Source: an uncultured Flavobacteriaceae bacterium
GTDB taxonomy: Bacteria > Bacteroidota > Bacteroidia > Flavobacteriales > Flavobacteriaceae
Direction of reading: 5' to 3'
NCBI GenBank assembly: GCA_947501625.1
Contig: CANMWN010000001.1
Location: 186,001 to 250,000 of the forward strand
Length of the DNA: 64,000 bases
Shown: one piece after another, positions 8,004-62,552 of the stretch
How the letters are laid out: every line of letters starts with the position of its first letter
How positions within the stretch are numbered: position 1 is the stretch's first letter
The notes under the pieces: generated by a model
Seen by the model: only the letters and a program-made list of their open reading frames with translations
Database searches by the model: none
Told to the model about the DNA's origin: nothing
Translations under genes and position numbers: made by a program

Positions 8004-8095
8004 CATTTTTCTAATGTACATTTCTTTCCTTTGTATTCTTATCACTTTAATAAGAATATAATCTCAATATTTTTATTCAAAAAAGTATAAGACAT

Positions 8096-8162: not shown

Positions 8163-8170
8163 AAAACAGT

Positions 8171-39633: not shown

Positions 39634-41763
39634 TTATTTTTTTATCCCCAACTTCACCAATAATGGTTCAATTTGAGGTTCTTTTCCTCTAAATTCTTTA
39701 TACAGTTCCATACCGTCTTTTGAACCACCATCACTCAACATTTTACGATATCTCTTTGCAGTCTCGGCATCAAAAATACTTCCAGCATCCTTAAATGCTT
39801 GGAAAGCGTCGGCATCTAAAACTTCAGACCATTTGTAAGAATAGTATCCTGAAGAATATCCAACAGGACTAGAGAAAATATGGTTAAAATAACCACTTCT
39901 ATAACGTGGAATAATTTCTTCTATCAATCCTAATTGTTTCATTTTATCTGCTTCAAACTGACGAGCATCACGTTTATCAGTATCTTTCAATGTATGCCAG
40001 AACATATCTAAATATGCAGCAGCCATATACTCAACATTAGCAAAACCTTGGTTAAAACTATTGGCATCATTCATTTTCTTAATCAATGCATCTGGAATTA
40101 CTTCACCAGTTTTATAATGCTTCGCATATAATTTTAATACCTCTGGCTCACTCATCCAATTTTCCATTACTTGTGATGGAAATTCTACAAAATCACGAGG
40201 AACATTCGTTCCAGATTGTGATTGATACGTAGTATTGGAGAACAATCCATGTAATGCATGTCCAAACTCATGGAATAATGTTTCTGCTTCTCTAAATGAT
40301 AATAAAGACGGTTGATCTTCAGTAGGTCTTGGATAATTAAAGTTATTGGTAACGATAGGTGTTACAAAGTTTCCATCTACATTAGACTGTGCTCTTAATT
40401 CATTCATCCATGCACCTCCACGTTTTGAGTCACGTGCAAAAAAGTCCATATACAAAACACCTAAATGTTTGCCATCTGCTTCTAAAACTTCAAATACTTG
40501 TTGATCTTCATGCCACTTTGGAATATCTTTTAATTCTTTAAAAGTCAATCCGAATAATTTAGTTGCTAATTCAAATGCTCCGTTACGAACAGCATTGAAC
40601 TCAAAATAAGGACGCATTTCTTCTTCGTCAAAATCATAACGTTCTTTACGAACTTTCTCAACATAATGTCTCCAATCACTTCCATTAAATTCTCCTTCAA
40701 CACCATCTTTTGCCATAAACTCCTTCATGGCTTTACGTTCTTCTTTAGCCATATCTAAAACTGGCTCCCAAAGTTGGTCCATAAAGTTCATAACTGCTTC
40801 TGGTGTTTTAGCAGTTGCTGTTTCAAGAATTAAATCGGCATGTGTATCATATCCCAATAAATTTGCTTTTTCTACACGTAATGAAACCATTTCTTCAATA
40901 ATTTCTTTGTTATCGTTTTCATTATCGTTATCACCACGCATAGCGTAGGCATCAAACATAGTTTTACGCATCTCTCTATTTGGTGATGATTGTAAAAAAG
41001 GATTGATACTTGGTCGTTGAACCGTGATTGACCAACCACTATCATGGCCTCTCTTTTTTGCTTCATCGGCAGCTAATGCTACTAAACTTTCAGGTAAATT
41101 CCCTAAGTCTTTCTTATCAGTAATATGTAATTCAAAAGCGTTCGTTTCTGCCAATACATTTTTTCCAAACTTATCAGCCAACTCTGCTAAACGTGCATTG
41201 ATTGCTCTTAATCGCTCTTCTTCTTTTCCTTCCAATGCTACACCTGCTCTCACAAAACCTTTATAAGTATCTTCCAATAGTTTCTGTTGTGGTCCAGTTA
41301 ATTTTGACTTATCTGTAGTATCATAAACGGTCTTAACTCTTTTAAACAAATCTTTATTTAAATTGATATCATCGGAATGTGCAGAAAAAATTGGCGCCAT
41401 TTCACTGGCAACTTCTTTGAGAACATCATTGGTATGTGCTCCATTAACTGCATAAAATACACTCGCCACTTTATTCAAAGTTGCACCTGATAATTCTAAT
41501 GCCTCAATAGTATTTTTAAAAGTTGGTGCATCAGGATTATTAATAATTGCTGCAACTTCTTCTTTTTGTTCTTTTAGTCCAACATCAAACGCTGGCTTAT
41601 AATGTTCGTTTTGAATCTTATCAAACGGTGGAACTCCAAATTGAGTTTTCCATTCAGTCAATAAAGGATTATCGCTAGTTGTATCTGTCACTTTTTGTTC
41701 TTTAGATTGGCAAGATGCAAGTAAAACAATACATACAAGCGCAAGAATAGTATTTGGTTTCAT
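39634..41763 (-). CDS. M3-family zinc metallopeptidase, peptidyl-dipeptidase-like lipoprotein
   Basis: 709 residues. A lipoprotein signal (KPNTILALVCIVLLASC, Cys18) is followed by the long helical M3 fold. The zinc motif HEFGH is at 498-502 (AETLFHEFGHALHGLF), with the third ligand glutamate about 25 residues on (PRDFVEFPSQVMENW). The length matches Dcp and oligopeptidase A. It should cleave short peptides, and the lipid anchor places it outside the cytoplasm, unlike E. coli OpdA. It is a single gene, 147 bases from the start of the giant surface protein gene. Confidence 0.94.
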   Translation of the reverse strand: MKPNTILALVCIVLLASCQSKEQKVTDTTSDNPLLTEWKTQFGVPPFDKIQNEHYKPAFDVGLKEQKEEVAAIINNPDAPTFKNTIEALELSGATLNKVASVFYAVNGAHTNDVLKEVASEMAPIFSAHSDDINLNKDLFKRVKTVYDTTDKSKLTGPQQKLLEDTYKGFVRAGVALEGKEEERLRAINARLAELADKFGKNVLAETNAFELHITDKKDLGNLPESLVALAADEAKKRGHDSGWSITVQRPSINPFLQSSPNREMRKTMFDAYAMRGDNDNENDNKEIIEEMVSLRVEKANLLGYDTHADLILETATAKTPEAVMNFMDQLWEPVLDMAKEERKAMKEFMAKDGVEGEFNGSDWRHYVEKVRKERYDFDEEEMRPYFEFNAVRNGAFELATKLFGLTFKELKDIPKWHEDQQVFEVLEADGKHLGVLYMDFFARDSKRGGAWMNELRAQSNVDGNFVTPIVTNNFNYPRPTEDQPSLLSFREAETLFHEFGHALHGLFSNTTYQSQSGTNVPRDFVEFPSQVMENWMSEPEVLKLYAKHYKTGEVIPDALIKKMNDANSFNQGFANVEYMAAAYLDMFWHTLKDTDKRDARQFEADKMKQLGLIEEIIPRYRSGYFNHIFSSPVGYSSGYYSYKWSEVLDADAFQAFKDAGSIFDAETAKRYRKMLSDGGSKDGMELYKEFRGKEPQIEPLLVKLGIKK

Positions 41764-47052: not shown

Positions 47053-47071
47053 TAATTAAAAACACATTAAA

Positions 47072-48361
47072 ATGAAAACTATAATAAAAATAAAATTAGG
47101 TATAATAGCGCTTTTAAGTACAATATCTTTAAACGCTCAAACTCCACCAAATCCGCCAAAAACACCAAGTGTACATATTTCTGAACACAGTGATAGTAGC
47201 ACAAACAATTCTTCTTATTCGTATAGTCATAGCGACAGTGATAACAAGAAAAGTAATGTTTCCGTTTCGGTAAACAATTCAGAAAATTCTTATTCGCTTC
47301 GCGCTAAGTTTCCTGAAGAAAAATACAATGAAATCAAAGAAGTCCTTATAAATGAAATGAATAAAAAAAATCATTCAGTCTTAAAAGGAAAAGATATTTG
47401 GAGTTCTGATTCAAACGGAGAAGAAGTTTATGAAGTTAGTTTAAGTAAAAAGAAACTATCAATGTATTTAGATAAAGATATCGCTTCAAGTAGTTTAGCA
47501 GAAAAATTTAAAAATTTAGGCATAACAATACGAACTGTAATTGTTGGGAAAGAAAATGAAGCACGAAGAGAAGCAGCTCGTTTGCAACGTGAAGCTGATA
47601 AATTACGAAGAGATTCTGAACGAATGCAACGAGAGGCACAAAGAATTGAAAGAGAAGCGCAAAGAGTCAAAACATCTGAACGATATAGAAACGATGCTAG
47701 AAGGTTTTCAGATGAAGCAAAACGCCTAGCTGATGAAGCCTCAAGATTGAATACAAGAGCAAGTCATAAAGGTGGAATCAGTTCATACATTAGAATGCTA
47801 TTACAAGATGTTAAGACTCAAATTAATGAAAGTCTAGTTAATAATTGGAATTGGTCAACAATTCAAAAAGAAATACTAAACAATCTTGAGAATGATAACT
47901 TAGTTGATTCTAAAAATGATGTTGTTTTTATAAAAGACGAAACAGGTTTTTATATAAATGGTGAACAACTATCAAAAAATATGGCTTCAAAATACAATAG
48001 TATTTTAACTAAAAATAAAGTTTCCAGTACCAACTACTTTACTTTTTACAAGAGAAATCAAAACATAGTTTTGGTAAACAACAATGCTAATATAGATGGT
48101 TTTTTAAGAGATTTAGTTTCAAATAAAATAATAGAATCTGATCGTAAAAAAGTAAAACTAGAGCTTAATGGAACTAGTTTTTATAAGAATAATAGCAAAA
48201 TATCTAGCAGTCAATCAAACACTTTGAATTCATTACTTCTAAAAAATAATATTATTCCTGCTCCTGGAAAAATCTTTGAAATTATTAAACCTGACAACTA
48301 CAAGTTAGGATATTCAATAGGTGGAAGAACACATATTGGTACTTGGAGTATGAAAAATTAG
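47072..48361 (+). CDS. Hypothetical exported coiled-coil protein in the two-component operon
   Basis: 429 residues, not recognised. A signal peptide ends near residue 22 (ISLNAQ). A Ser/Asn/His-rich low-complexity stretch covers about 35-65. A strongly charged Arg/Glu/Ala coiled coil (about 165-235) carries short repeats such as READKLRRDSERMQREAQRIE. The C-terminal half has two similar stretches around FYINGEQLSKNMASKYNSIL and FYKNNSKISSSQSNTLNSLL, suggesting an internal duplication. It starts 19 bases after the response regulator and ends at a strong terminator, so it is the third gene of this operon. Confidence 0.75.
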   Translation: MKTIIKIKLGIIALLSTISLNAQTPPNPPKTPSVHISEHSDSSTNNSSYSYSHSDSDNKKSNVSVSVNNSENSYSLRAKFPEEKYNEIKEVLINEMNKKNHSVLKGKDIWSSDSNGEEVYEVSLSKKKLSMYLDKDIASSSLAEKFKNLGITIRTVIVGKENEARREAARLQREADKLRRDSERMQREAQRIEREAQRVKTSERYRNDARRFSDEAKRLADEASRLNTRASHKGGISSYIRMLLQDVKTQINESLVNNWNWSTIQKEILNNLENDNLVDSKNDVVFIKDETGFYINGEQLSKNMASKYNSILTKNKVSSTNYFTFYKRNQNIVLVNNNANIDGFLRDLVSNKIIESDRKKVKLELNGTSFYKNNSKISSSQSNTLNSLLLKNNIIPAPGKIFEIIKPDNYKLGYSIGGRTHIGTWSMKN

Positions 48362-48365
48362 TCAT

Positions 48366-48398
48366 AAAAAAAGGATTGTGAATTCACAATCCTTTTTT
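48366..48398. terminator. Bidirectional terminator beside the tRNA fragment
   Basis: aaaaaaaggattgtgaattc continuing acaatcctttttt is a perfect palindrome around gaattc, with A and T tracts on either side. It ends the kinase-regulator-coiled-coil operon and would also end a tRNA transcript from the right, which fits the former location of an intact tRNA here. Confidence 0.9.
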
Positions 48399-48400
48399 AG

Positions 48401-48442
48401 TAGCGGGAACAGGACTCGAACCTGTGACCTTCGGGTTATGAG
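48401..48442 (-). pseudogene. 3' fragment of tRNA-Met(CAT); probable attachment site (attL)
   Basis: Read on the minus strand, this is the 3' part of a tRNA: anticodon loop CTCATAA (48442-48436), 3' anticodon stem CCCGA, variable loop, T arm ACAGG-TTCGAGT-CCTGT, and acceptor strand TCCCGCT plus A. The matching 5' anticodon stem, D arm and 5' acceptor strand are absent; the sequence to the right (ctctttgaaagcaatatt) cannot supply them. The break falls exactly at the anticodon loop, where tyrosine-integrase elements often cross over. An element that integrated here would leave the 42-base 3' fragment at its left end and rebuild the whole tRNA at its right end, beyond base 64000. Confidence 0.85.
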
Positions 48443-48498
48443 CTCTTTGAAAGCAATATTATTAACACTTTTATTGGGCTACACAACTATCAAATACT

Positions 48499-48522
48499 AA
48501 AAACGTATGCAAAAACGTATGC
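48499..48522. repeat. Perfect 12-base tandem repeat near the attachment site
   Basis: aaaaacgtatgc occurs twice in succession, 57 bases inside the left border. Short direct repeats at this distance from the core are typical of arm-binding sites for tyrosine integrases, which makes that the leading guess. Confidence 0.6.
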
Positions 48523-48912
48523 AGTTTTAGACTTATATTTATTATTAATAATTTGATGTAAAAATAAAGATTATTTTATTACTATCAATATTTGTAACAT
48601 TTGACTTTAAATAATAAAAAACATAAGTTGTTATTAATTAATATATTAAAAATTAGACCTTACAATATGTTTGTTGAATTGCAACGCTTATGAGATTAAA
48701 CTTTTACAAGATGATTCTTAAAACTACGCTTATTAATTTCAGAAGTTTATTGGCTCCAAATAATATATTCTTGTAACGAAAATAATGTTGATGTGATTGG
48801 TTATCTAACAATATATTAAAAAAATATATCTACTATTTCTATTGTGAAGTATTCTCTGAAAACACTATAAATTGGATGAAAATATCTATCAAATTCTTGA
48901 CACCTATGTTAC

Positions 48913-48934
48913 TATAGTGTTTAACAACACTATA
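48913..48934. repeat. Inverted repeat, 9-base arms
   Basis: tatagtgtt (48913-48921) and aacactata (48926-48934) are perfect inverted copies around taac. There is no T tract, so it is more like a protein-binding palindrome than a terminator. Nothing around it identifies the binder. Confidence 0.4.
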
Positions 48935-49417
48935 ATAATAAACAAAATCTAAAATGATTAATTTTAGAGTGAAAAATAAATAAACTTAATATGAAATAGA
49001 CTATCTTATCATTCCTTGGTTACAAAAAAAACTTTGCAAAGTAAAATATCAAAAAAACTTTCCTGAAATTATTAAAAAGCAAAAACCATTATAAGGAAAA
49101 GGTGTGTAGTTGGTTAAGGAACTTGAAGTTGAATAGTATTGTGTTTAAGATAAATATTAAATCTATAAAAAATAGTATTTACTAAGGAGTAAATAAATAG
49201 AAAATGAAATTGTTAGAAAATATTTTATAATTCTTAAGTGATCTAAAATATTAAAAAAAATTATAAAATTAAGACTATTAAATTATTTGAACTTAAATAC
49301 CCCCCAAATTTCAAAATTCACATTAAACAACATAAAAAACAATTTATATATACCATATAATATTCATTATCTATAGATTAAAATAAATTGGTTGCTCTTA
49401 GTCGATTTATAGATTTT

Positions 49418-49957
49418 ATGGCACCAGTAAATTTAATAATACTAAAAGTCACTTTATTAAAAAAAGGAGATACAAAAGCATTCAAATATATTTTTGAATA
49501 TTATTTTGAAAAATTAGTGGGTTATAGTTATAAGATAACTAAAGATAAAGATGTGTCCAAGGATATTGTTCAGGAACTATTTATAAAAGTTTGGAAAAAT
49601 AAGTCCAAAATCAAGGAAGAATTTATAGAACCCTATTTATACAAATCCACTTACAACAGTAGTTTAAACTATATTCGGAATCAAAAGAAATTCGAACAAA
49701 TAATTCCATATTCAAAAGTAGATTCAGTTTTAATAAATGAAGATAACAGTTTTATAAAAGAGGATAAAAGAATGGATTTACTTAAAAGTGCCATAAGCCA
49801 ATTACCTAGAAGGTGTAAAGAAATATTTTTGAAAACTAAACTTCAAAATCTCTCCTACAAACAGACAGCGATAGATTTAAATATTTCTGAAAAAACAGTA
49901 GAACGACAGGTAAGTATAGCACTAAAAAAAATTAGAACATTCATCAATAATTTCTAA
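49418..49957 (+). CDS. ECF-type RNA polymerase sigma factor, Bacteroidetes family
   Basis: 179 residues from the ATG at 49418; an open TTG 30 bases upstream gives an unlikely longer form. Region 2 (LLKKGDTKAFKYIFEYYFEKLVGYSYKITKDKDVSKDIVQELFIKVWKNK) and region 4 (AISQLPRRCKEIFLKTKLQNLSYKQTAIDLNISEKTVERQVSIALKKIR) are complete, with the helix-turn-helix near the C-terminus. It should direct RNA polymerase to the genes controlled by the FecR anti-sigma factor encoded downstream, after one small lipoprotein gene. It is the first gene of a sigma/FecR/TonB-receptor cascade in which the receptor relays the presence of its ligand to transcription. Confidence 0.92.
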   Translation: MAPVNLIILKVTLLKKGDTKAFKYIFEYYFEKLVGYSYKITKDKDVSKDIVQELFIKVWKNKSKIKEEFIEPYLYKSTYNSSLNYIRNQKKFEQIIPYSKVDSVLINEDNSFIKEDKRMDLLKSAISQLPRRCKEIFLKTKLQNLSYKQTAIDLNISEKTVERQVSIALKKIRTFINNF

Positions 49958-50028
49958 ATAATTCATTTTTTTGGGGGTTTTTTTAATTCCATGTGTAATG
50001 ATAGTAATAATAATAAAAATTTAAAATT

Positions 50029-50409
50029 ATGAAATCAAAGTTTTATGTCGTTTTATTAATGCTGTCATTATATGCATGCAGTGACGAAGATTTTTTAACA
50101 CCTACCTTGGAAACAAATGAGGCTACAAATATTGCACAGAATGATGTACAGTTAAATGGAACGCTAACTAGTAAGGGTAGTAACGAAATCCTAGAACTCG
50201 GCTTTGAAATCTCTTTGGATGCCGCAGAGCTTGCCAATGGCAATGGAGAAAAAATAACTATCATACAACAACTTAATTCTCTCCCTTTTGATTTCAGCGC
50301 CACGGCAGACCAATTAGAACCAAATAAAGAATATTTCTTTAGAGCATATGCTAAATCGGGAGATATAGAAGTATATGGAGACATACTTTCCTATATAACA
50401 TTAGAATGA
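50029..50409 (+). CDS. Small lipoprotein with fibronectin-III-like domain
   Basis: 126 residues. The signal ends in a lipobox (MKSKFYVVLLMLSLYAC, Cys17), so it is lipid-anchored. The mature part has the layout of a single FN3-like beta-sandwich: TNEATNIAQNDVQLNGTLTSKGS, ILELGFEIS, and LEPNKEYFFRAYAKSGDIEVYGDILSYI. The gene is unusual in lying between the sigma factor and FecR genes, which are normally adjacent. It is 71 bases after the sigma factor and 19 before fecR. A ligand- or receptor-binding role is conjecture. Confidence 0.75.
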   Translation: MKSKFYVVLLMLSLYACSDEDFLTPTLETNEATNIAQNDVQLNGTLTSKGSNEILELGFEISLDAAELANGNGEKITIIQQLNSLPFDFSATADQLEPNKEYFFRAYAKSGDIEVYGDILSYITLE

Positions 50410-50428
50410 TAATTCGTTGGTTTAGGCA

Positions 50429-51226
50429 ATGCAATTAAATCAAAGTGAAATGGAGGAAGTTTGGCTTACAATTGAAGAAGCCATAGAAAAGCATAAACGA
50501 AAATATGTTGTTAAGCAACTAACTGTACTGTATTGCTTATTAGGCATATCATTTTTTATATATGAATTAAACAGCAAAAATATAAGACAATACAACTCTA
50601 AAGAATTTGCTGATGTTTCGCTTATAGATTCAAGTAGCATATCGTTAAATAAAAATACCATTATTGAAGTTACGAGCGATTTTTTAAAAGACAACGAGCG
50701 TCTGGTAAGCCTAAAGGGAGAGGCATTTTTTAACGTTAAAAAAATGCCAAAAAAGCCTTTTAGAATTAATTGCCAAGGTGCAGAAGTAATTGTTCTTGGA
50801 ACTGCATTTAATGTCCGAAATATTGCCAAAGATAGCCTCATAGAAGTTGTTGTATCATCTGGAAAAGTCCAATTGACAGCTGGAAGGCAAGTGATAGAAC
50901 TTGCCAAAAATGAAAAAGGAATTTTTAATAGAAATCAAAACACATTATACAAACTAAAATCTAAGAACTTAAATGATTTAGCCTGGCAAACCAAAAAACT
51001 TGAATTCAAGAATGCATCAATGACTGATGTTGTTCAAACGATAGAGAAGTTATTTGATTTGAAAATTACGGTTACCAATCCAGCTATTCGAAATTGCAGA
51101 ATTACTTCAAGTTTTAAATTTCGTAATCTGGAAGATGTTCTAACAATAATTGAAACTACTACTAACACCCGATTTAGAAAAGTAAATAACCAAATTAACG
51201 TTGAAGGTAATGGGTGCAAGGACTAA
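50429..51226 (+). CDS. fecR: FecR-family anti-sigma regulator
   Basis: 265 residues. A short cytoplasmic segment (1-26) precedes one transmembrane helix (about 28-46), then the periplasmic FecR domain (about 65-170; VSLKGEAFFNVKKMPKKPFRINCQGAEVIVLGTAFNVR) and the C-terminal DUF4974/STN-like domain (ETKKLEFKNASMTDVVQTIEKLFDLKITV, then LEDVLTIIETTTN). It holds the sigma factor at the membrane and takes the signal from the TonB receptor encoded next. Its last 17 bases overlap that gene, whose ATG is at 51210, so the two are translationally coupled. Confidence 0.92.
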   Translation: MQLNQSEMEEVWLTIEEAIEKHKRKYVVKQLTVLYCLLGISFFIYELNSKNIRQYNSKEFADVSLIDSSSISLNKNTIIEVTSDFLKDNERLVSLKGEAFFNVKKMPKKPFRINCQGAEVIVLGTAFNVRNIAKDSLIEVVVSSGKVQLTAGRQVIELAKNEKGIFNRNQNTLYKLKSKNLNDLAWQTKKLEFKNASMTDVVQTIEKLFDLKITVTNPAIRNCRITSSFKFRNLEDVLTIIETTTNTRFRKVNNQINVEGNGCKD

Positions 51227-53789
51227 ATTTATTGTGTTTCTATTGATGTTCATGTGTCCTAAAATCCAATATGCTCAAATGTTGGATGTTACAGTTACAT
51301 TGCCAAATCAGAATATCACAACTGGCGAAATCATTAAAACTTTAAATAACCAACATAATTTAGAGTTCTCATATATAGAAGGCTTGATTAATTCTAATGA
51401 ATTACACTCCCTACCGAAATTGTCAATCAAATTAAGAGATTTATTAAATGACGTTTTTGAGACCGAAGTTATTTCTTGGAAATTGCGAAACAACTTGGTA
51501 ATTATTACGAGGAAGGATAATAATAGGGTAATTAGTGGCTATATAAAAGATGCTTCCTCTAGTGAAGCTATTTCTAATGCTCATGTTTTCGATGAAAAAA
51601 GCTTAAAGGGTAGTTATAGTAATTCATATGGTTTCTTTAGTATAAATATCCCCGACGATAATAAAAATCTCATCGTCTCTCATTTAGGATATAGAACTAA
51701 ACATGTTAAAATTGAAGAGGAATCAACAATTACGATTTACCTTCAACCAAATGCACAAGAATTAAATGAAGTTATTCTTACTCCTAAATCAAAGGCTTTG
51801 GATGCTATTAATATGAGTACGGTAAATATTGGAATAAAGGAAATTAATCAAACACCTCAAATTTTTGGCGAACCAGATGTGTTAAAAACACTTTCAATAT
51901 TACCAGGTGTACGGTCTGGTGTTGAAGGCTCTTCGGGTGTTTATGTCCGAGGCGGCGGAAATGGTGGAAATCTTATCCTTTTGGACGATGTACCTGTATA
52001 TAATGCAAACCATCTATTCGGTTTTTTCTCGGTATTTAACCCTAATGCTATACAGGATGTCAAACTTGTTAAGGGTGGCTTTCCCGCTAATTATGGAGGA
52101 AGACTCTCATCTGTAATTGACATAAAAATGAAAGAGGGCAATAGAAATAAACTGCAATATGAGGGCTCTTTGGGTTTAATCGCATCTAACCTAACTATTC
52201 AAGGCCCTATAAAAAAAGAAAAAAGTTCATTTTTATTCTCTGCTAGAAGAACTTACTTGGATTTATTTACAACATCTATAGCTAAACTAGCAAATTCCAA
52301 TCGCACTATAGGATACAACTATTGGGACTTAAATGGAAAACTTAGTCATTCTTTTTCTGATAAAGACAGGATTTATTTAAGTATGTATTTAGGAGGAGAC
52401 CTTTATAATGATAAATATAAAACCGATTTTGGCATATCTAATGGTAGTGAACGTGTTAATGAAGAATCTGGCTTAAACTGGGGTAATGTAACTACATCAT
52501 TTAGATGGAATCACGTTTATAACAGTAAGTTGTTTAGCAATTTAGTGCTGTATAGAAGTAAGTATAAGTTCGGACTAGAAGCTAAAATTGATAATGTAAT
52601 TAGCAATGAAAGAGTGTTTAGAAAAAACGACTATAAATCCAATATAGAAGACTTGGCGGCTAAAATAGATTTTGATTATTTCTATTCTAACAAGCATAAA
52701 TTTAAGTTTGGTGCGGCCTTTATCCACCATACCTTTTTGCCCGGTGCTTTTACCTATAATTCTAATTTAACGGAAAATATATCCTTTGGTTCATCTGAAG
52801 TTGCAACAACCGAGTATTATGGCTATTTGCTAGATAGGTTTAATGTGTCTAAAGAACTATCGCTAAATCTGGGTGTTCATCTAGCTGGCTCAAGTTCTTC
52901 AGACAAATCATATTTTTCCATTCAACCTAGAATTGCTGGTAGATTTAACTTGAATAATTCAAGTTCTCTCAGGTTTTCGTTTGCTCAAATGGAACAATAC
53001 ATTCATTTGCTAGTTAATTCGGGTGTTGGCCTGCCAACAGATTTATGGGTACCCTCAAATAAAGAAATTAAACCTCAAAAATCTCAACAATTAGCGCTTG
53101 GATTCACTAAAAAAATAAAACCAGATTTAATAATGTCAGTTGAAACCTATTACAAATGGATGAAGAACTTAATTGAATATAAAGATGGTGTGAGTTTTGT
53201 AAATATTGATAATAATTGGGAAAGTCTTGTCGAGTCTGGTAAAGGAAAAAGTTATGGAGCAGAATTTCTATTAAAGAAAACTACCGGTGTAATAACTGGT
53301 CAGTTAGCCTACACTTATGCTAGATCACTTCGTAAATTTGATAACTTAAACTTTGGGAAGGAATTCCCTTTTAAATATGATCGCAAACATGATGTAAACC
53401 TGCTGCTTGTCCATAATTTTAAGAGTAATAAAACACTATCGCTTGCATGGAATTACGGTACAGGATACCCAATTACTTTACCAACGTCCACCTTTATAAA
53501 TGATACTGGACATTTTACGGGAACCAACCAAGAAGACTTTGTATATAACTATCCTGCTAGAAATAGTTCAAGAATAAAAGACTACCACAGGTTAGATTTG
53601 AGCATGACATTTTCGAAAAAAAAGAAATGGGGAACAAGGGAGTGGAATATTGGCCTATACAATGTTTACTCAAGACTCAATCCAACTTTTATCGATTTTG
53701 ATGATGAGAATGTTAACGATAAGAGATTTAAGCAGCTTAGCCTATTCCCAATAATCCCATCAATAAGTTATAAATTCATATCTAATTAA
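51210..53789 (+). CDS. TonB-dependent outer membrane receptor with STN signalling domain
   Basis: 859 residues from the ATG at 51210 (MGARTKFIVFLLMFMCPKIQYAQ). Order: signal peptide, STN domain (about 25-100; ITTGEIIKTLNNQHNLEFSYIEG), CarboxypepD_reg-like sandwich (about 105-190; VISGYIKDASSSEAISNAHVF, GYRTKHVKIEEESTITIYLQP), plug (SILPGVRSGVEGSSGVYVRGGGNGGNLILLDDVPVYN), and a 22-strand-type barrel to the end. The STN domain contacts FecR to report ligand binding. It is not a SusC (no SusD neighbour). The partner downstream is a DUF4249 lipoprotein, as often seen in Bacteroidetes. The substrate is unknown. Confidence 0.92.
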   Translation: MGARTKFIVFLLMFMCPKIQYAQMLDVTVTLPNQNITTGEIIKTLNNQHNLEFSYIEGLINSNELHSLPKLSIKLRDLLNDVFETEVISWKLRNNLVIITRKDNNRVISGYIKDASSSEAISNAHVFDEKSLKGSYSNSYGFFSINIPDDNKNLIVSHLGYRTKHVKIEEESTITIYLQPNAQELNEVILTPKSKALDAINMSTVNIGIKEINQTPQIFGEPDVLKTLSILPGVRSGVEGSSGVYVRGGGNGGNLILLDDVPVYNANHLFGFFSVFNPNAIQDVKLVKGGFPANYGGRLSSVIDIKMKEGNRNKLQYEGSLGLIASNLTIQGPIKKEKSSFLFSARRTYLDLFTTSIAKLANSNRTIGYNYWDLNGKLSHSFSDKDRIYLSMYLGGDLYNDKYKTDFGISNGSERVNEESGLNWGNVTTSFRWNHVYNSKLFSNLVLYRSKYKFGLEAKIDNVISNERVFRKNDYKSNIEDLAAKIDFDYFYSNKHKFKFGAAFIHHTFLPGAFTYNSNLTENISFGSSEVATTEYYGYLLDRFNVSKELSLNLGVHLAGSSSSDKSYFSIQPRIAGRFNLNNSSSLRFSFAQMEQYIHLLVNSGVGLPTDLWVPSNKEIKPQKSQQLALGFTKKIKPDLIMSVETYYKWMKNLIEYKDGVSFVNIDNNWESLVESGKGKSYGAEFLLKKTTGVITGQLAYTYARSLRKFDNLNFGKEFPFKYDRKHDVNLLLVHNFKSNKTLSLAWNYGTGYPITLPTSTFINDTGHFTGTNQEDFVYNYPARNSSRIKDYHRLDLSMTFSKKKKWGTREWNIGLYNVYSRLNPTFIDFDDENVNDKRFKQLSLFPIIPSISYKFISN

Positions 53790-54710
53790 ATGAAAAAATT
53801 AAGTCTTATTATATTTATAATATTAGTTTCTTGTGAAACTGATTTTTATCCAGATTTAAATTTTAAGGAACAAGTAGTAGTCAATGGTTTTTTTCGTCCT
53901 TCAAATTCTTTTAACATCAATTTAACCAAATCAATTAGAATAGACGAACCTTTAAATAGACTGCCAGTAACTGATGCATCAGTAGAAGTTTTTTACAACA
54001 ACCAGCCTTACGAGAGTTTAGTGTATCAAGGGAATGGACTTTATTCGGGTAATAGAATTATTGATAGCGAAAAAAACTTTACACTTAAAATTAATCATGA
54101 AGAATTCGGCTTAACAACTAGCCAAGATTCGATTCCTGAGTCTGTTCAAATTTTAAACGCTACGCTCATCCCTATAGAAGAAGACGTAAATTTGGACCAA
54201 GTTGGATATCCATGTGATATCCAATTCACAGACCCTGTCCAGGCGAAAAATTATTATGGTGTTGAAGTTGTTGTAGTAGATATTAGCAATCCCGATAATT
54301 CGGGTAATATTGGAGCGGGTTTTGCAGGAAGTATTTTTTTGGAGGATACCGATATTGATACCTCTGGAAATTCAGATATTATAATTGGCGATGAAAACAA
54401 TCAAAACATAGGGCAATCTATCATATTCTTTGAGGATGATGCCTTTGCAACCGAATCTATAAGTGTCAGGTTTTACCTATCATCTCATAACATTGATATT
54501 TTAAATGGCGATAATTATGAAGTATATTTTATACTCAAAACGTTAAGCGCAAGTTATTTCAATTATCTAAAATCTATTGCTTTACAAAATGAAGTCAATG
54601 AACAGGAAACTCCAACAGAGCCAGTTCAAATTTATACAAACATTAATAATGGTTTAGGCTTGTTTGGAGCGTATAATTTTTCTTATATAAATGCTGAACT
54701 AGAACAATAA
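53790..54710 (+). CDS. DUF4249 lipoprotein
   Basis: 306 residues. A lipoprotein signal (MKKLSLIIFIILVSC, Cys15) is followed by a DUF4249 body: KEQVVVNGFFRPSNSFNINLTKSIRIDEP, the PVTDASVEVFYNNQ segment, and a beta-rich rest ending in an ITNINNGLG-like stretch (IYTNINNGLGLFGAYN). It starts immediately after the TonB-receptor stop. DUF4249 proteins regularly accompany such receptors and probably act as a surface-bound cap or partner, in the way SusD partners SusC. It is the last gene of the sigma-factor operon. Confidence 0.88.
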   Translation: MKKLSLIIFIILVSCETDFYPDLNFKEQVVVNGFFRPSNSFNINLTKSIRIDEPLNRLPVTDASVEVFYNNQPYESLVYQGNGLYSGNRIIDSEKNFTLKINHEEFGLTTSQDSIPESVQILNATLIPIEEDVNLDQVGYPCDIQFTDPVQAKNYYGVEVVVVDISNPDNSGNIGAGFAGSIFLEDTDIDTSGNSDIIIGDENNQNIGQSIIFFEDDAFATESISVRFYLSSHNIDILNGDNYEVYFILKTLSASYFNYLKSIALQNEVNEQETPTEPVQIYTNINNGLGLFGAYNFSYINAELEQ

Positions 54711-55150
54711 ATAACCGATTTCTTTTGGATAAAAGTAATTTGAATAGCCTTTAACTATTACATCAAATACCAGAAATAACTCATTGAGCATTATTCACAT
54801 TAAGGATAGCACAATCATTTTAAGATGAAGTAGTTTTTATAGAATTTTACAATAGGTTTTTATAATAATACTGAATATATTATTTTTATTTGATATTTTG
54901 GTTTTCATTCGGAATGTTTGTTTAATGTTCCGAATGTTTTTCAAATTACTGATAATCCGAAACTTCCATTTTAGGTTAACTAGATTTCAATTTTCTACAT
55001 TATAACATGGTTTTATAGATTATTCATAACTATTATTCTGTATTTATTAATTCAATGTATTTATTAAACTTTTAAAATATGAAAAATAGTATTAGAATTT
55101 TCGCGATTATTTTTTCACTTTTTATTATTCGAACTTAAGATTTAAAAACG
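54711..55150. other. Gene-poor gap with an inverted repeat and a signal-peptide-like micro-ORF
   Basis: 440 bases. cattcggaa (54906-54914) and ttccgaatg (54928-54936) are perfect inverted copies followed by TTTT, a possible terminator or operator. At 55079-55138 a 19-codon ORF (MKNSIRIFAIIFSLFIIRT) looks like the start of a signal peptide cut off by TAA, perhaps a gene remnant. Nothing else is supported. Confidence 0.5.
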
Positions 55151-56791
55151 ATGAGAGCAATATTTTTAATATTTAGTATTCTCCTAACATCAGTTAGTGT
55201 TGGCCAAAGCATATCATCTAAAGAATGGGTAAATGACGTTAATTATTTGCAAAATATTATCCATAAAGAATATCTCTTTTTATTCAAAAAAATCTCAAAA
55301 GAACAATTTGATAACCAAATAGCAAGTTTTAAAGATAAAATACCGAGTTTAAAGGAACATGAAATAAAAGTTGGTATAGCAGAACTAATAGCGTTGTTTG
55401 GTTACGGCCATACGGTATCTTGGTTAACCTCATGGAGATATAATGATGATGTTGGCTTTCATCAGTTGCCTTTAAATTTTTATGCATTTAAAGATGGTAT
55501 TTACATACAAGGTACTCACGAAGATTACAAGGATATTCTTGGTGCAAAAGTTTTAAAAGTAGGAAACCTATCAGTAGAGGATGCTTTAGAAACTATTAGG
55601 CCTGTGGTTAGCGCAGAAAACGATCAATTCTTTAAGGCTCATGGAATTAATTATTTGGGAGTCCCTGAAGTACTTCATGCAAAGAAAGTCAGTAATTCCT
55701 TAAAGAGCGTTTGGCTAGAGGTTGAGAAAAATGGTAAACGTATTAAAAGAGAAATTATACCAATACCTTCATTAAGATTTCCTGGTAAATATAACCTAGT
55801 TCAAAATGGGAATGATTGGCTTGAAGCCAGAAAGAATGATGAAAGGCCATTGTGGATTAAAAATTTAGATAAATATTATTATTACGAGTACTTGCCAGAC
55901 TCTAAAACAGTATATGTCCGTCAAAGTAGAGTGCAAGATGATCCAAATCAGAAAAATATCGAAAATTTCTATAGTGAAGTATTTTCTTTTATTGAAAAGA
56001 ATGACGTCGAACGTATGATATTAGATCTGAGGCAAAACAGCGGAGGGAATAATTATAAAAATAAACCAGTAATTCTAGGATTAATAAAATCAAAAATAAA
56101 TCAAAAAGGTAAACTGTATGTAGTCTTAGGCAGAAGAACATTTTCAGCATGTCAAAACTTGGTTAATGAAATTGAAAATTATACAAATGCAATTTTTGTA
56201 GGGGAACCTACCGCAGAAAACGTTAATTTCTTTGGAGATGTAAATATTTTGACTTTACCAAATAGCAAGTTTAAAGTTAGATTATCTCATGCATGGTGGC
56301 AGGATAAAGACCCAAGAGATAAAAGGCAATGGACTAAACCATCAATCCCTGTTGAGTTATCTTTTAAAGACTATTATAATAATTATGATCCCACCATCAA
56401 TACTATTATAACTGCGTCTAAAACAGAAATTCGTTTAGACGAATTATTGAATAAGGAAACTGACACCAACTTAATATCGAAAATAAAGCAACTACAATCT
56501 AATAAGAAGTTAGGTTTTTATAATTTCCAAAACTGGATAAATGGTGCCGGTTACATTTGCATTAATAGCAATAATGCTAGAAGAGCATTTAAACTGTTTA
56601 AGTTGAATAGTGAGTTGTATCCTAATTCTCCGAATGTTTGGGATTCTCTTGCTGAAGGCTATTGGCGAACGGGCAATCGAGAAAAAGCTCGAGAACTATA
56701 TCACAAGGTAATTAAAATGGCTCCAAATTCAAGAGTTGCTCAACATTCACAAATTATGTTAAATTACATGAATAGAGAAAAAAGCAATTAG
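55151..56791 (+). CDS. S41-family (C-terminal processing) peptidase with C-terminal TPR
   Basis: 546 residues. A signal peptide (to about residue 19) precedes a helical N-terminal domain (25-95), a PDZ-like segment (113-150), the S41 catalytic core (about 245-400) and TPR-like helices (about 440-535; PNSPNVWDSLAEGYWRTGNREKARELYHKVI). The nucleophile is Ser332 in GRRTFSACQNLVNEIE, with the supporting motifs LDLRQNSGG and FVGEPTAENVN. Exported, it would act in the periplasm. It belongs to a run of hydrolase genes in the putative island. The substrate is unknown. Confidence 0.88.
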   Translation: MRAIFLIFSILLTSVSVGQSISSKEWVNDVNYLQNIIHKEYLFLFKKISKEQFDNQIASFKDKIPSLKEHEIKVGIAELIALFGYGHTVSWLTSWRYNDDVGFHQLPLNFYAFKDGIYIQGTHEDYKDILGAKVLKVGNLSVEDALETIRPVVSAENDQFFKAHGINYLGVPEVLHAKKVSNSLKSVWLEVEKNGKRIKREIIPIPSLRFPGKYNLVQNGNDWLEARKNDERPLWIKNLDKYYYYEYLPDSKTVYVRQSRVQDDPNQKNIENFYSEVFSFIEKNDVERMILDLRQNSGGNNYKNKPVILGLIKSKINQKGKLYVVLGRRTFSACQNLVNEIENYTNAIFVGEPTAENVNFFGDVNILTLPNSKFKVRLSHAWWQDKDPRDKRQWTKPSIPVELSFKDYYNNYDPTINTIITASKTEIRLDELLNKETDTNLISKIKQLQSNKKLGFYNFQNWINGAGYICINSNNARRAFKLFKLNSELYPNSPNVWDSLAEGYWRTGNREKARELYHKVIKMAPNSRVAQHSQIMLNYMNREKSN

Positions 56792-56804
56792 ATAGGTACA
56801 AAAA

Positions 56805-57182
56805 ATGAATAACTTAGTATTATTAACCTACATAATCATTACAGGTATTGTAATCTTATCGTCAATTAAAACAACTAAGATTGATGAAGAGATTTATAGA
56901 AACTTTTATAAAACTTGGACAAGTTTTTTAATATTAAACATTTTTATAATTTCTGGGAGCTTGATTTTCTATTACTATAACGCTTCATTCAAAGAACTAC
57001 CCCAGATAAAAATATTTCCCATCTTTAGCAAAATCATATCCATAATAATGATTTTTGGTAGTACATCTTTGCTTCTTGTTCTAACACTATGTAATAGTAT
57101 GCAAGAAATATCAAATTTTAGAACAGTCAAAAACATTTTTTGGTTGTGCTTAAGCGTTCTATTCTATATTTATTGGTTTTAA
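56805..57182 (+). CDS. Hypothetical membrane protein, 125 residues
   Basis: Four predicted helices: about 3-20, 37-57, 70-92 and 104-123. The first loop has Lys/Thr/Glu-rich sequence (KTTKIDEEIYRNFYKTW), the next (NASFKELPQIKIFP) is short. No family is recognised. The gene begins 13 bases after the S41 gene stop, so it probably shares the transcript. Nothing further can be said of its role. Confidence 0.6.
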   Translation: MNNLVLLTYIIITGIVILSSIKTTKIDEEIYRNFYKTWTSFLILNIFIISGSLIFYYYNASFKELPQIKIFPIFSKIISIIMIFGSTSLLLVLTLCNSMQEISNFRTVKNIFWLCLSVLFYIYWF

Positions 57183-57389
57183 AATAATATTTAAAATAAC
57201 AAATATTAATTGTTTAGATATAGTTTATAATAATTACATAACAAAATTTACTAGACCTCTTTCCTTTTATTGTTTTTTGGGTAGTCAATTTACAGTAGAT
57301 AATTCATGCTAAAATTTAAATATTCAAGATTACGAGAATTTAAAGAAATATATCTACAGTAAATCATAATATAACTTCCAAATTATTAA

Positions 57390-57512
57390 AATAAATATGA
57401 AATCAATCAAAAATTTAAAAGTAAGGATGATACAGTCTTTAGCATCCAGTATCAAAGAGGTTCTAAAGAATACCAAACAAAACTTACATTGTCCGATTTA
57501 ATTAAAAACTAG
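57390..57512 (+). pseudogene. PDZ-like 3' gene remnant
   Basis: A frame that has no start codon reads NKYEINQKFKSKDDTVFSIQ and then YQRGSKEYQTKLTLSDLIKN to a TAG at 57510-57512, directly before the next gene. It has the look of the last two strands of a PDZ domain (as at the end of S41 or aspartyl proteases). Upstream a TAA (57387) blocks the frame. A different frame holds a 34-codon ATG ORF at 57397 (MKSIKNLKVRMIQ...), which is less protein-like. The rest of the 333-base gap 57183-57515 shows nothing. Confidence 0.5.
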
Positions 57513-57515
57513 AGT

Positions 57516-58886
57516 ATGTTCAAAAAAATCACCTTCTTGTACAACGCATTAATAACACTTTTTTTTGTGACCAGCATATCGTCATATGCTCAAAAAAGTT
57601 TAGAACAAAAAGTAGATGAGTATATAAACCCACTAGTAGAAGCTACAGATTTTTATGGTACCGTGCTTTTTGCAAAAAATGGAAAGATAGAATTAGTAAA
57701 AGGTTATGGATTTCAAGACATAGAACACAATGTTGAGAATACCCCTCTAAGTGTGTATCATATGGGCTCGCTTAATAAACCTCTCACGGCAATAGGGCTT
57801 ATGAAACTGCATCAAGATGGTAAATTGCATATTAATGATGTCATCTCAAAATATATACCTGAATATCCAAGAGGCAACGAGATTTCAATTAAGAATTTAT
57901 TGGCGCAAACCTCAGGTATTCCTTCTTACAACAGGTTTTCAGATTATGGCACCTATGCTAAACGAGAGAATACCTTAAAGCAAGTAGTTGATTGGTTTAA
58001 AGATGAAGAACTACTTTTTAAGCCAGGAGAAAAATATAGTTACAGCAATTCTAATTATGTTTTGCTAGCTCATTTAATTGAATTGATTACTAATCAAACA
58101 TATGAAGACTACATGCAAAAAACGGTTTTTAAACCCTTGGGGATGCAACACACAGGTATCTATAAATATGATGAGATTATAAAGAATAGAGCTATTGGTT
58201 ATGACCCAGCTAATAATACATATAGCTTAAAGCCAATAGGATTTTACAATAATTCAATAAAGGTTGGTAGTGGTGCTGTACATTCAACGGTTTTAGATAT
58301 GTTTAAATTAGAAGATGCCTTATACACCAATAAAATTTTAAATGATAACACAAGACAATTAATGTTAACGGAAGTTGCAGAAAATGATTACGGACTTGGA
58401 TGGGGAATTTGGCAACGTTTCGATAAAAATAAATATGACCATGATGGTGCCTCACCGGGAGCAGTTGCCTATTTCTCTACATACCCAGATGATAAAGTTA
58501 CCATTATTTTTTTAGGAAATATCAATAGTGGAGCATTCCACAAAATGAAATACGACCTAGCCGCAATCTATTTTGATAAAGACTATGAAGTACCTACTCT
58601 AAGAAAATATGTAGTGCTAAAAAATGAAGAACTCTCAAAATTTGAAGGTAGGTATGAGTTTGAAAATGGTAACTTCTTCGATTTAAAAATCATTGAAGGT
58701 AACCTACGATTTTTATGGAGAGGAAGAGGCGAATTGGGCTATTTACTTTCCCCAACAAGTGATTACAGTTTCTACATGCGTGCACGTGGCGACCAAATTG
58801 ATTTTAGCCTAAACAATGAAGGTAAACTAGAAGCCTATTATGTAGAGCGTTCCGGTAGAAGTAAACTTAATAAAATTAGAAAATGA
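57516..58886 (+). CDS. Serine hydrolase of the beta-lactamase/class C fold
   Basis: 456 residues. A signal peptide ends near residue 25 (SISSYAQ). The penicillin-binding-like core has all three motifs: SxxK as Ser85-Leu-Asn-Lys88 (MGSLNKPLTAIGLMKLHQDGKL), YxN as Tyr176-Ser-Asn178 (KYSYSNSNYVLL), and HDG in YDHDGASPGAVAYF. The final 90 residues form a separate beta-rich domain. Such proteins are exported esterases or D-amino peptidases; drug resistance is not implied. Its stop overlaps the start of the following S41 gene (ATGA), so they were co-translated. Confidence 0.88.
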   Translation: MFKKITFLYNALITLFFVTSISSYAQKSLEQKVDEYINPLVEATDFYGTVLFAKNGKIELVKGYGFQDIEHNVENTPLSVYHMGSLNKPLTAIGLMKLHQDGKLHINDVISKYIPEYPRGNEISIKNLLAQTSGIPSYNRFSDYGTYAKRENTLKQVVDWFKDEELLFKPGEKYSYSNSNYVLLAHLIELITNQTYEDYMQKTVFKPLGMQHTGIYKYDEIIKNRAIGYDPANNTYSLKPIGFYNNSIKVGSGAVHSTVLDMFKLEDALYTNKILNDNTRQLMLTEVAENDYGLGWGIWQRFDKNKYDHDGASPGAVAYFSTYPDDKVTIIFLGNINSGAFHKMKYDLAAIYFDKDYEVPTLRKYVVLKNEELSKFEGRYEFENGNFFDLKIIEGNLRFLWRGRGELGYLLSPTSDYSFYMRARGDQIDFSLNNEGKLEAYYVERSGRSKLNKIRK

Positions 58887-60145
58887 TGAAAACGAAATTA
58901 ATAGCAGTAATTCTGATTACATGGGTTAAAGCAATTAGCTTTGCTCAGGAAATCAATGAGCCCCTAAAATCAAAAGTATTAAATGAGGTTTAAGCTTTAA
59001 TTAACATAAAATATGTAAATAAATCTGTTGCACATTCTATAATTGACTCTTTGAACTCTAAAAAATATGACGAAAATACAATTAAAGATTTTCGAATTAG
59101 ATTAAGTCGTGATTTGAAAAAATTTAGTAACGATAAGCATTTTCGAATCTTATATAATTTTGAGAATGATTTTTCAAATGCGATTACAAATATTGATAAG
59201 GGAAATAATTACGGGTTTAAGAAGCTCGAAATACTACCAGGTAACGTAGGCTATCTTAAAATAACTTCATTTGAAAATCCTAGTATTGCTGGTAATATCG
59301 CCACGTCATCACTAAATTTTTTGTCTAATACCCAAGCTCTAATTATAGACTTGAGGGATAATAACGGTGGAAGGAAAGCAATGGTACAACTTCTTTTGAG
59401 TTACTTTTTCGAAGAAACTTCTAAGCATTTATTTAGTATTTACGGTCGAAGTGAAGAATTTCATGGTTACACAGAAACATACTTAAGTGGAAAGAGATTA
59501 GATAATATACAACTCTATATTTTAGTAAATGGTAATACTTTTAGCGCTGCCGAAATGTTTGCTTTTATTTTAAAAAATCAAAAAAGAGCAATTATAGTTG
59601 GCGAAAAAACTTCAGGCGGTGGACATACAATAGGGAATTATAAAATTGGGAATGGTTTTTCAATTAATTTACCAGTTGGTAAGGTAGTAGATGCAGTATC
59701 CAAAGAAAGTTGGGAAAAAGTAGGTGTAGTTCCTGATATAGAAATAACAAGTGATTTAAGTATATATAAGGCTCATTTGATGGCTTTAGAAAATCAAATT
59801 ACTAATACAAATGACTCTTCTTCAAGTGCCAATTTTAAATTACATTGGCATATAGCAATTCTCAATTCAAAGACTAAACCAGTAACTTTAAGTAAAAATA
59901 CTTTAAAATCATATGTAGGTACTTTTGGTCGTAGAATTATAACATATTACGATGGAAAATTATATTACCAGGGTAGAGCAGGAATAGCTAAAACCGAATT
60001 AATTCCAATAAATGAAACCACTTTTAGATTTGATGTAGTTGATTTTTTTAGAATCAAAGTTGTTGTTGATAAAAACAAAAATATTGTGGGCATAAAAGGT
60101 TTATACGATGACGGTTATGAAGATTTTTCGAAGAAAAATGATTGA
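58883..60145 (+). pseudogene. S41-family peptidase gene interrupted by an in-frame TAA
   Basis: From the ATG at 58883 (overlapping the upstream stop) the frame encodes a signal peptide (MKTKLIAVILITWVKAISFAQ) and 15 further residues, then TAA at 58991-58993. The same frame continues open to 60145 and encodes a normal S41 body: DSLNSKKYDENTIKDF, ALIIDLRDNNGG, nucleophile serine in NTFSAAEMFAFILKN, and VGEKTSGGGHTIGNY, with a C-terminal domain. The block after the stop (ALINIKYVNKSVAH) is clearly part of the same protein. A restart at TTG 59051 or elsewhere would give a peptidase with no signal peptide. I read this as a nonsense-mutated gene. Confidence 0.8.
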
Positions 60146-60306
60146 GAGACTGAAAGCGCTTATAGTTATCGCATATTGGGTAATAGAAGATTTATGACTT
60201 TTAGTCAAAGTTTTTCGTGATATAAAATTTATAACAATTCAAATTCTATATTAATTTACTATTAGTTATTTAGTAAAAATTATTTAACATATCAGAAACT
60301 GACAAA

Positions 60307-61638: not shown

Positions 61639-61756
61639 AATTTTAGAACTGAAATACTTATGTCACCATCCTTCTCTTGATTGAATACCATCATAGATTC
61701 AGTACTATTAAATTGAGGTCTCGCATCATTTAATGATGAATCTACCAGAATGTCTA
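61635..61756 (-). other. Displaced last blade of the PD40 protein, in the shifted frame
   Basis: After the A8 run the alternative frame reads IDILVDSSLNDARPQFNSTE then SMMVFNQEKDGDISISVLKL and stops with TGA at 61637-61635. DARPQFN...MMVFNQEKDGDISISVL is a normal PD40 blade ending. The TGA overlaps the ATG of the amidohydrolase gene (61638-61636) as ATGA, typical operon spacing. Both points show this was the original end of the gene. Confidence 0.8.
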
Positions 61757-62490
61757 TTTTTTTTAGTTTCAACATTTATTTTGGCAATATCCCAATTCTT
61801 TGACACACTGTTATAGAATGAATAATAAACATCTTTTCCACTTTTACTCCATACACAATGCCCTTCAAATACTGGGGAATTGGTCAATCTAGTTTCTTCT
61901 TTTGTAGCTAGGTCTAAAATATGTAACTCTCCATTTTCATTGGGTAACCACTTAATGAAAACAATTTTTTTCCCATCTGGCGAATAGTTTGAAAATGAGT
62001 CGAAATAATCATTCGAGGTAAGTTGTGAATTTTTTCTAGATTGAATATTAAATTCAAAAAGTTCTGTTTCTTCATCAGTTGGACCAGAACCATAAGTAAT
62101 TTTTTTGCCATCACTACTCCAAGCTGGATGATAATCAGGAAAACTGTTATGTGTGATTTTATCAAAGATGTTCCCCTTTAAATCCATCAAATAAATATCG
62201 GTATCACCATCAAGGTCTGAAATAAAAGCGATAGTCTTTCCGTCTGGGGAAACGGTTGGCGTGGTATTATTAAATCCATTGGATGTTAATTGTTTAATTT
62301 CTTTTCCATTTTGGTTCATATAGAAAATTTCCCAGTTGCCTGTTCTATTAGATTGAAAAACAAAACCAGAACCATCTGGCATCCAATATGGATACATATC
62401 TTTAATATTTGTTATTTTTTTTATTTGATTTTGTTGACCAAATGATACATTTAAGACGAGTAAAAAAAATAATATAATTGGAATTTTCAT
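61726..62490 (-). CDS. PD40/TolB-type beta-propeller protein, C-terminus displaced by frameshift
   Basis: 254 residues as it stands. A signal peptide (to about residue 18, LNVSFGQ) precedes five PD40 propeller blades: YPYWMPDGSGFVFQSNRTGNWEIF, TPTVSPDGKTIAFISDLDGDTDIY, HPAWSSDGKKITYGSG, NYSPDGKKIVFIKWL and HCVWSKSGKDVYYS. The last residues NRHSGRFIIK do not continue the pattern. They follow an A8 run (61757-61764 on the plus strand, T8). One base less would restore a sixth blade (next entry). Predicted to be periplasmic, possibly a substrate-recruiting partner of the S41 peptidase upstream. Likely truncated, or read through by slippage. Confidence 0.85.
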   Translation of the reverse strand: MKIPIILFFLLVLNVSFGQQNQIKKITNIKDMYPYWMPDGSGFVFQSNRTGNWEIFYMNQNGKEIKQLTSNGFNNTTPTVSPDGKTIAFISDLDGDTDIYLMDLKGNIFDKITHNSFPDYHPAWSSDGKKITYGSGPTDEETELFEFNIQSRKNSQLTSNDYFDSFSNYSPDGKKIVFIKWLPNENGELHILDLATKEETRLTNSPVFEGHCVWSKSGKDVYYSFYNSVSKNWDIAKINVETKKNRHSGRFIIK

Positions 62491-62552
62491 AAGTCTGTTT
62501 TTGATTTTCTATGAATTTTGGGTGTTTAATTCTGTGAGTCTTTTAAGCATTT

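Follow-up and report, generated by a model that had tools for sequence, protein, structure and literature searches.

Why does the 3' part of a tRNA-Met gene stand by itself in a flavobacterial chromosome, and what begins at its edge? The window analysed here, a 64,000-nt stretch from the genome of an uncultured Flavobacteriaceae bacterium, carries at positions 48401–48442 a run of 42 bases that reads, on the minus strand, as the 3' part of tRNA-Met. The initial annotation, made from the letters of the window, took this run for the left border of a genomic island that would extend from 48443 to beyond 64000.

An orphan tRNA half and the island that it bounds

ARAGORN reported zero tRNA genes in the 64-kb window, which indicates that the 5' half of the gene is absent at 48400–48443, as had been annotated from the 42 bases (which are indeed present), and an Rfam scan of the window gave no match at the gathering score. 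When the whole genome (2.66 Mb in 11 contigs) was searched with the 42-mer at up to three mismatches, two copies were found, both exact, and a reversed-pattern control gave zero matches. The second copy lies within an intact tRNA-Met (CAU) gene at 268440–268513 of contig C1, minus strand (locus L004:16440–16513). This gene sits past the window end, 34,040 bp to the right of the fragment, between a tyrosine integrase gene and a gene that we take, from knowledge of its sequence, to be era; strong relatives of the latter (E below 1e-100) occur in 55 of 60 genomes, our own included. An intact tRNA-Met with the same bases and an adjoining integrase is what had been predicted to lie to the right. 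The extent of the fragment needs a slight correction, however: the 42 bases, said to end at the anticodon loop, are all there, but the exact repeat measures 44 nt (48400–48443 and 268440–268483, spaced 34,040 bp apart) and spans the entire anticodon loop (placed by eye). The tRNA 3' repeat is thus present at both ends and a complete tRNA at one only, as in a tRNA-integrated island. These findings confirm the orphan 3' half and support the reading of 48400–48443 as the left end of a 34.0-kb genomic island with an integrase, so that the proposed extension beyond 64000 stands, with the right end just past the window; taken by itself, the island is an unremarkable example of a familiar type, the tRNA-integrated genomic island. 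The features of the window are collected in Table 1. (Note that both copies of the tRNA-Met 3' half have, in the T-stem, an A-T pair where the other matching genomes of the genus have T-A; the same swap occurs in G034, a member of another genus.)

Table 1. Features in and around the left part of the island (window coordinates)
Feature	Position	Strand	Basis
M3 peptidase, nearest left gene shown to be common to the genus	39634..41763	-	Genome search
Lineage-specific chromosomal gene adjoining the border on its left; 429 aa, without a Pfam family	47072..48361	+	Pfam, genome search
Hairpin with A/T tracts abutting the tRNA 3' end	48366..48398		Sequence read directly
Orphan tRNA-Met(CAU) 3' half (44 nt); one of the two direct repeats at the island ends	48400..48443	-	Sequence, ARAGORN, genome search
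Left 15.6 kb of the island, whose right limit is position 268439 of contig C1 (window numbering: 82439)	48444..64000		Repeat copies
Pair of left-end sites, CGTATGC-N5-CGTATGC (period 12 bp), proposed as arm-type sites of the integrase	48504..48522	+	End comparison
ECF sigma factor, FecR-type anti-sigma factor, TonB-dependent receptor and DUF4249 gene	49388..54710	+	Pfam
S41 peptidase with TPR, unknown protein of 125 aa, PF00144 (Beta-lactamase family) serine hydrolase and S41 peptidase	55151..60145	+	Pfam
Amidohydrolase; PD40 beta-propeller protein	60307..62490	-	Pfam
S41 peptidase, 555 aa, start at 64220 in window numbering	62553..64000	-	ORF list, Pfam

The hairpin, which had also been annotated and is seen directly in the sequence, was probably the terminator originally shared by the tRNA gene and the preceding plus-strand gene. 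To the left of it, the annotation had placed conserved housekeeping genes, as against accessory genes to the right of the border. This holds in part: conservation reaches to about 41.8 kb at best, but the gene next to the border is lineage-specific, with no convincing relative in 39 other genomes and one weak, broken match (32% over 87 aa). The M3 peptidase has an 81–88% identical relative in 6 of the 13 other genus genomes and a partial one at 72% in G008; in none of the six do its right-hand neighbours in our genome adjoin it, within the reach of their contigs. To its right, G002 and G009 carry a block that is found at 17116 and onward in our window, and G001, G003, G006 and G012 carry yet other genes; the VWA and M3 peptidase genes indicate that the gene order left of the site is rearranged across the genus. 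(Within the window, 34544–39487 encodes a repetitive protein of 1647 aa that has a type IX secretion signal domain, and adjoins a PorP/SprF gene; GC there, in 2-kb steps, rises to 42%, above the surroundings.)

Because the flanking gene is lineage-specific and the left gene order is rearranged in the genus, the empty site in a close relative that the annotation had looked to was not found with exactly our left flank among the relatives compared. A probable pair of occupied and empty sites was found, however, in G005, where two contigs share a flank (four differences over the first 293 nt) that leads in one of them to an orphan 3' half and an element end, and in the other to a whole tRNA-Met and era. 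Judging from their sequences, these contigs are likely an occupied and an empty version of one site, in an assembly that may mix strains. A carboxylase gene left of the tRNA in G002 was also considered as an ancestral flank and set aside, its close relatives being confined to G005 and G008.

The lineage-specific left neighbour, and the stacking of islands that occurs in G006, would fit a fragment that is a decayed tRNA duplicate formed without integration, or the inner junction of an older stack of islands. We had indeed first suspected an inner junction, since relatives lack the left neighbour gene and the hairpin at first seemed like those of some element ends, and dropped the idea when most element right ends proved to have about 20–30 nt between hairpin and tRNA, whereas the two abut here (by eye). 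Either origin now appears very unlikely: an element end with matching sites follows directly after the fragment, the genome holds no third fragment at up to three mismatches, none with at least 28 of 42 matches occurs elsewhere in the window, Pfam identifies no integrase among the three nearest left genes (44942–48361), and the hairpin–tRNA spacing is like that of other, element-free flanks (by eye). We thus continue to read 48400–48443 as the outer left end of a single island.

To survey the cargo, all 27 non-overlapping island ORFs of at least 70 aa were scanned with Pfam. Over its whole length the island encodes three S41 peptidases, five PF00144 serine hydrolases, the amidohydrolase and the PD40 protein, together with aspartyl protease and M23 proteins, DoxX and a histidine kinase/LytTR pair. 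The damaged genes that had been annotated agree with a shortened IS1 transposase (117 aa, matching positions 50–147 of 199 of NF033558) and a 75-aa acetyltransferase piece. No defence gene was found among ten proteins tested. GC content is similar in the island (29.8%) and its flanks (31.7% and 30.6%), so composition carries no signal. Consistent with the expectation that gene order right of the border would not be conserved in all relatives, one cargo gene (55151–56791) lacks an orthologue in each of the 13 other genomes of the genus, where the matches are weak and partial, mostly to its TPR part; the remaining cargo genes were compared with the stretches around the integration site alone. 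Cargo thus varies among relatives, those islands that occupy the same site elsewhere bearing unrelated genes.

We also considered whether the island is what is left of a prophage or conjugative element that once relied on this integrase and has since shed its transfer genes, which we regard as unlikely. Nine viral contigs, of which eight measure 32–54 kb, do have a related integrase (38–47%) at or close to an end (a tenth relative is a weak, internal match), and a 35% relative is found in a cultured Leeuwenhoekiella phage. However, the 27 island ORFs contain, by Pfam, no relaxase, type IV secretion or conjugation gene, by which an ICE or IME would be recognised, and no virion structural or packaging gene of a prophage (seven of them were also compared with PHROGs), and at the same site other islands have cargo unrelated to ours.

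The tRNA-Met gene as a hotspot

Across the genus, the tRNA-Met 3' half was found at 18 places in 10 of 14 genomes, as 8 whole genes and 10 orphan halves, the latter distributed over 8 of the 14 genomes and all terminating at one identical base. Four genomes (G003, G007, G011 and G013) gave no match to the 3' half, G007 being 97% complete. An orphan half and a whole gene share a contig only in our genome and in G006; in the others the contigs are broken or the half lies elsewhere. In G006, two orphan halves are followed by the whole gene, at spacings of 27,669 and 35,465 bp, and an integrase ends each unit at its right, an order that points to two islands in tandem.

Several further observations bear on the traffic at this site. 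A gene cluster, taken from reading the sequences as secretion- or pilus-like, lies beside an integrase of one clade in G006 (L121, L122, L040), and beside one of the other clade in G009 (L126 and L043, on two contigs). In G002 (L123) the cluster is inverted and adjoins an orphan tRNA half. Since one cluster accompanies integrases of different clades, integrases and cargo seem to change partners at this site. On contig C50 of G001 (L130, about 7733–9287 after reversal), an orphan half is followed by an opposite-strand ORF of 445 aa that shows no 12-bp repeats and looks, by eye, like a different type of integrase, so a second kind of element may use the same core. Left of era in G007 (L041), ORFs resemble pieces of another integrase (by eye). 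In G012 (L045, L131), a tRNA-Met gene without a nearby integrase has on its left a sequence like an element right end (a hairpin and a CTTAAGC stretch), perhaps the trace of a decayed element.

Matched repeats at the island ends and in the integrase frame

The integrase gene of our island encodes 429 aa on the minus strand, left of the intact tRNA-Met, and its ATG follows immediately upon a hairpin with a T-tract. Pfam recognised in the protein only a SAM-like domain, and PHROGs identified it as an integrase. A search of solved structures with the single protein gave no match, and a profile search gave IntI4 alone, weakly. In an alignment of 47 family integrases, R271, K295, R369 and H399 are invariant and Y408 is present in all but one, so that the enzyme beside the whole tRNA has the R, K, R, H and Y that we take, by position and from knowledge of the family, to be the catalytic set. 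A Tyr replaces the first His of the HxxR box in every one of the 47, so integrase activity is not guaranteed. Integrase matches (E 0.001 or better, weak ones included) occur in 50 of 199 family genomes. Among 31 integrase loci, 25 adjoin an intact tRNA-Met (by ARAGORN) and 6 an orphan 3' half (by sequence). Outside the family, in 198 genomes of the class, matches at E 1e-30 or better cover only the part behind the N-terminus.

Just inside the left end of the island lies a pair of CGTATGC sites with a 12-bp period (Table 1), and a matching pair is found past the window, inside the integrase ORF at L004:16326–16344 (codons 15–21). The pair of our genome (G000) was found once in the window and once in L004, and shuffled sequences contained none. 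Other elements have repeats of their own that agree, by eye, at both ends: CGTGTTC and TGTGTAC, both in G006, and CGTTTAC in G008 and TATATGC in G009, where each pair joins two contigs. G010 has CGTGTTC at a left end on one contig and CGTATGC in an integrase on another, which do not match and which we read as belonging to two elements. The orphan halves in G001 and on contig C4 of G002 lack such 12-bp repeats.

To extend this comparison to the family, we searched 199 genomes with the left-end pattern and obtained 41 rows (40 sites) in 30 of them, as against one match for a reversed control; 28 of these 30 are among the 50 genomes with an integrase match. From the family search 43 integrases were picked by hand, weak and partial matches being left out, and 41 of them have at least two.GT.T.C sites at a 12-bp period in the 5' part of the ORF; the other two lack a regular chain, and one of these (L116) has no repeats at all. 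Of the 40 left ends, 25 could be paired with a correctly oriented integrase no more than 90 kb away on their contig, and the 15 without such an integrase were dropped. In the 25 pairs, left sites had their variable letters repeated in the integrase of the pair at a mean share of 0.94, compared with 0.286 when integrases were shuffled (largest value 0.64; 0 of 20,000 shuffles reached 0.94, in a test that ignores integrase relatedness). The match was complete in 22 pairs and half in three (G231, G224 and one of two pairs in G164). Matching short repeats thus lie on both sides of the core and share a type within an element, as in lambda-type systems. Since the repeats differ among elements and agree within one, each integrase appears to recognise its own address, and we read the 12-bp-period repeats as predicted arm-type integrase sites. 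On a quick tree of 47 integrases, from which the first 32 residues had been removed (13 of 44 inner branches strongly supported, 14 unresolved), the six labels (five repeat types and one without repeats) need at least 10 changes, the minimum being 5; this suggests that one repeat type has given way to another several times, each time at the two ends alike.

The repeats may instead be sites for a partner protein, namely an excisionase or the product of a small gene adjoining the integrase gene. Direct repeats one helix turn apart are described as typical of excisionase sites in the accessible part of one source (PMC7498355), and an ORF follows the integrase in 38 of 47 loci. Twenty-three of these partner ORFs, all in the first clade, resemble our own, which encodes 235 aa; those of the second clade, mostly 312–324 aa, are unmatched by ours. 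In the other nine loci the partner was not found, about four of these ending too soon. (A candidate assignment of the 235-aa protein as RteC-like received no support from Pfam.) We consider a partner protein distinctly unlikely as the ligand, because the repeats stand at both ends, as arm sites do, because their type tracks the integrase lineage, and because the partners differ by clade and were not found in 9 of 47 loci, yet nearly all integrases have repeats. The same features favour the integrase itself as the protein that would read the repeats.

The repeats are in frame in 46 of 47 integrases and encode a repeated peptide (AYxxAY, EHxxEH or VHxxVH). It could be argued from this that they are a protein feature, the DNA repeats merely following from a conserved N-terminal peptide. 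The same repeats recur, however, at the non-coding left end, in equal orientation and period and matching the element's own integrase, and third codon positions within them are fixed against the codon preference of the genes. In particular, when the repeat was chosen by protein letters alone (46 of 47 integrases), Tyr, His and Asn codons in the repeats ended in C 118 times and in T 6 times, compared with 892 and 1832 times elsewhere in the same genes, and Ala and Val codons ended in A in 64 of 64 cases, compared with 535 of 1716 elsewhere (the sequences are related, and hence no probability is given). The six T endings come from two integrases, L227 and L073, and the left end assigned to the L073 element (in G009) shows the same T. 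Because third positions are fixed against the genes' own preference, the bases appear to be kept, and not the residues alone; we regard an origin in the peptide as extremely unlikely and retain the interpretation as DNA sites.

Inspection of the reading frames indicates that the repeats lie inside the integrase ORF, which does not surely imply that they are translated. The T-tract stands right before an ATG in 27 of 28 loci (starts having been picked partly by the T-tract rule). After the repeats there is a Met in 14 of 16 second-clade integrases; in the first clade an ATG, GTG or TTG codon follows in 28 of 30 integrases and Met in 2 of 30. Codon-position signal ahead of the repeats is weak in both clades. 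Start-type codons after the repeats and weak codon signal upstream raise the possibility that the repeats lie in a leader. At several loci, the integrase frame is open backwards through the hairpin towards the tRNA gene.

The arrangement seems to extend to viruses. Of the ten viral contigs with a relative of the integrase, nine were examined (L248–L256), and in eight of them the integrase frame begins with repeats of 12-bp period. In Leeuwenhoekiella phage vB_LaeS_Arctus_1 (PP314354.1; L258–L259), TTGTTTGCGAT occurs twice at a 12-bp spacing in the integrase start, the record ends in a tRNA 3' half, and its other end has a similar stretch, with one mismatch in 12, at about position 59–70 (all by eye). 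Given these in-frame repeats, temperate phages seem to share the arrangement.

A proposed mechanism and its counterparts in known elements

Taken together, the data make it highly probable, in our assessment, that the 34.0-kb island entered the anticodon loop of tRNA-Met by means of its own lambda-type tyrosine integrase, which would use a core site and self-addressed arm-type sites. The arrangement is read from sequence; the integration event would have proceeded as follows. The element's tyrosine integrase would insert the island in the anticodon loop, and the element would supply a copy of the tRNA 3' half, so that the tRNA gene next to era remains complete, while the original 3' half, pushed aside, is left at 48400–48443. 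As a lambda-type enzyme, the integrase would hold two kinds of site: the core, in the anticodon region of the tRNA, and the arm-type sites, which are the 12-bp-period direct repeats found about 50–75 nt inside the left end and again in the 5' part of the integrase frame at the right end. That the integrase itself would bind these repeats is suggested by their presence at both ends, by their tie to the integrase lineage and by the lack of a single shared partner gene. With less certainty, and by analogy with KplE1 IntS, we suggest that integrase bound to sites in its own gene may lower its own expression. Equally tentatively, read-through from the tRNA promoter may be limited by the T-tract hairpin that separates tRNA-Met from the ATG of the integrase gene.

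For the family as a whole we lean, with moderate confidence, towards a broader proposal: tRNA-Met integrases throughout the Flavobacteriaceae would keep their own arm sites in frame, so that the DNA sites dictate the first residues of the protein, and the address (CGT-N-T-N-C with a 12-bp period) would have been switched repeatedly. With end repeats of its own type, each of several elements stacked at one tRNA would stay separately addressed.

Islands of this general form are familiar. Tycheposons, for example, are cargo islands at tRNA genes of marine bacteria that carry a tyrosine recombinase. Within the Flavobacteriia, one such region is the 10K island of Riemerella anatipestifer, for which excision and integration have been shown by experiment (PMC6764341). 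Like ours, it has a tyrosine integrase by a tRNA gene and a perfect direct repeat (53 bp there); unlike ours, it uses tRNA-Arg, and arm sites are not described in the part of that paper available to us (PMC6764341). ICEs of the ICECleSHZ29 type in Chryseobacterium likewise target the 3' end of tRNA-Met(CAT) in a flavobacterium, but according to the excerpt available they measure 74.9 kb, carry conjugation genes and have a 17-bp repeat at the very 3' end (PMC12561888), whereas our island has a 44-bp repeat that reaches to the anticodon loop and no conjugation gene was found in it. With IntS of prophage KplE1 our integrase has in common a gene linked to a tRNA and arm-type sites near the gene start; in KplE1, as far as the accessible text goes, these sites overlap the promoter and autoregulation is shown, whereas here the repeats come after the first in-frame ATG and autoregulation is proposed from the arrangement (PMC2951348). 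Finally, as in the integrases of Cluster K mycobacteriophages, arm-type repeats vary between close relatives alongside N-terminal changes; those integrases and hosts are different, and sites inside the integrase gene are unmentioned in the portion of the paper at hand (PMC3203893). Among the matches listed by a search of the open-access literature, there was no recognised description of sites inside an integrase gene or of this island family, and matched repeats inside an integrase frame are, to our knowledge and within the literature searched, undescribed.

With the ends, the target and the likely recombination sites known, islands and stacks of this widespread family could be cut from assemblies automatically. 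The matched end repeats also constitute a natural data set on change of site specificity, in which both ends and the gene change together. If the integrase indeed reads sites in its own gene, expression and recombination would be coupled by a very simple feedback, and, should our proposal be true, the set would be a natural series from which to read the arm-recognition code of these integrases.
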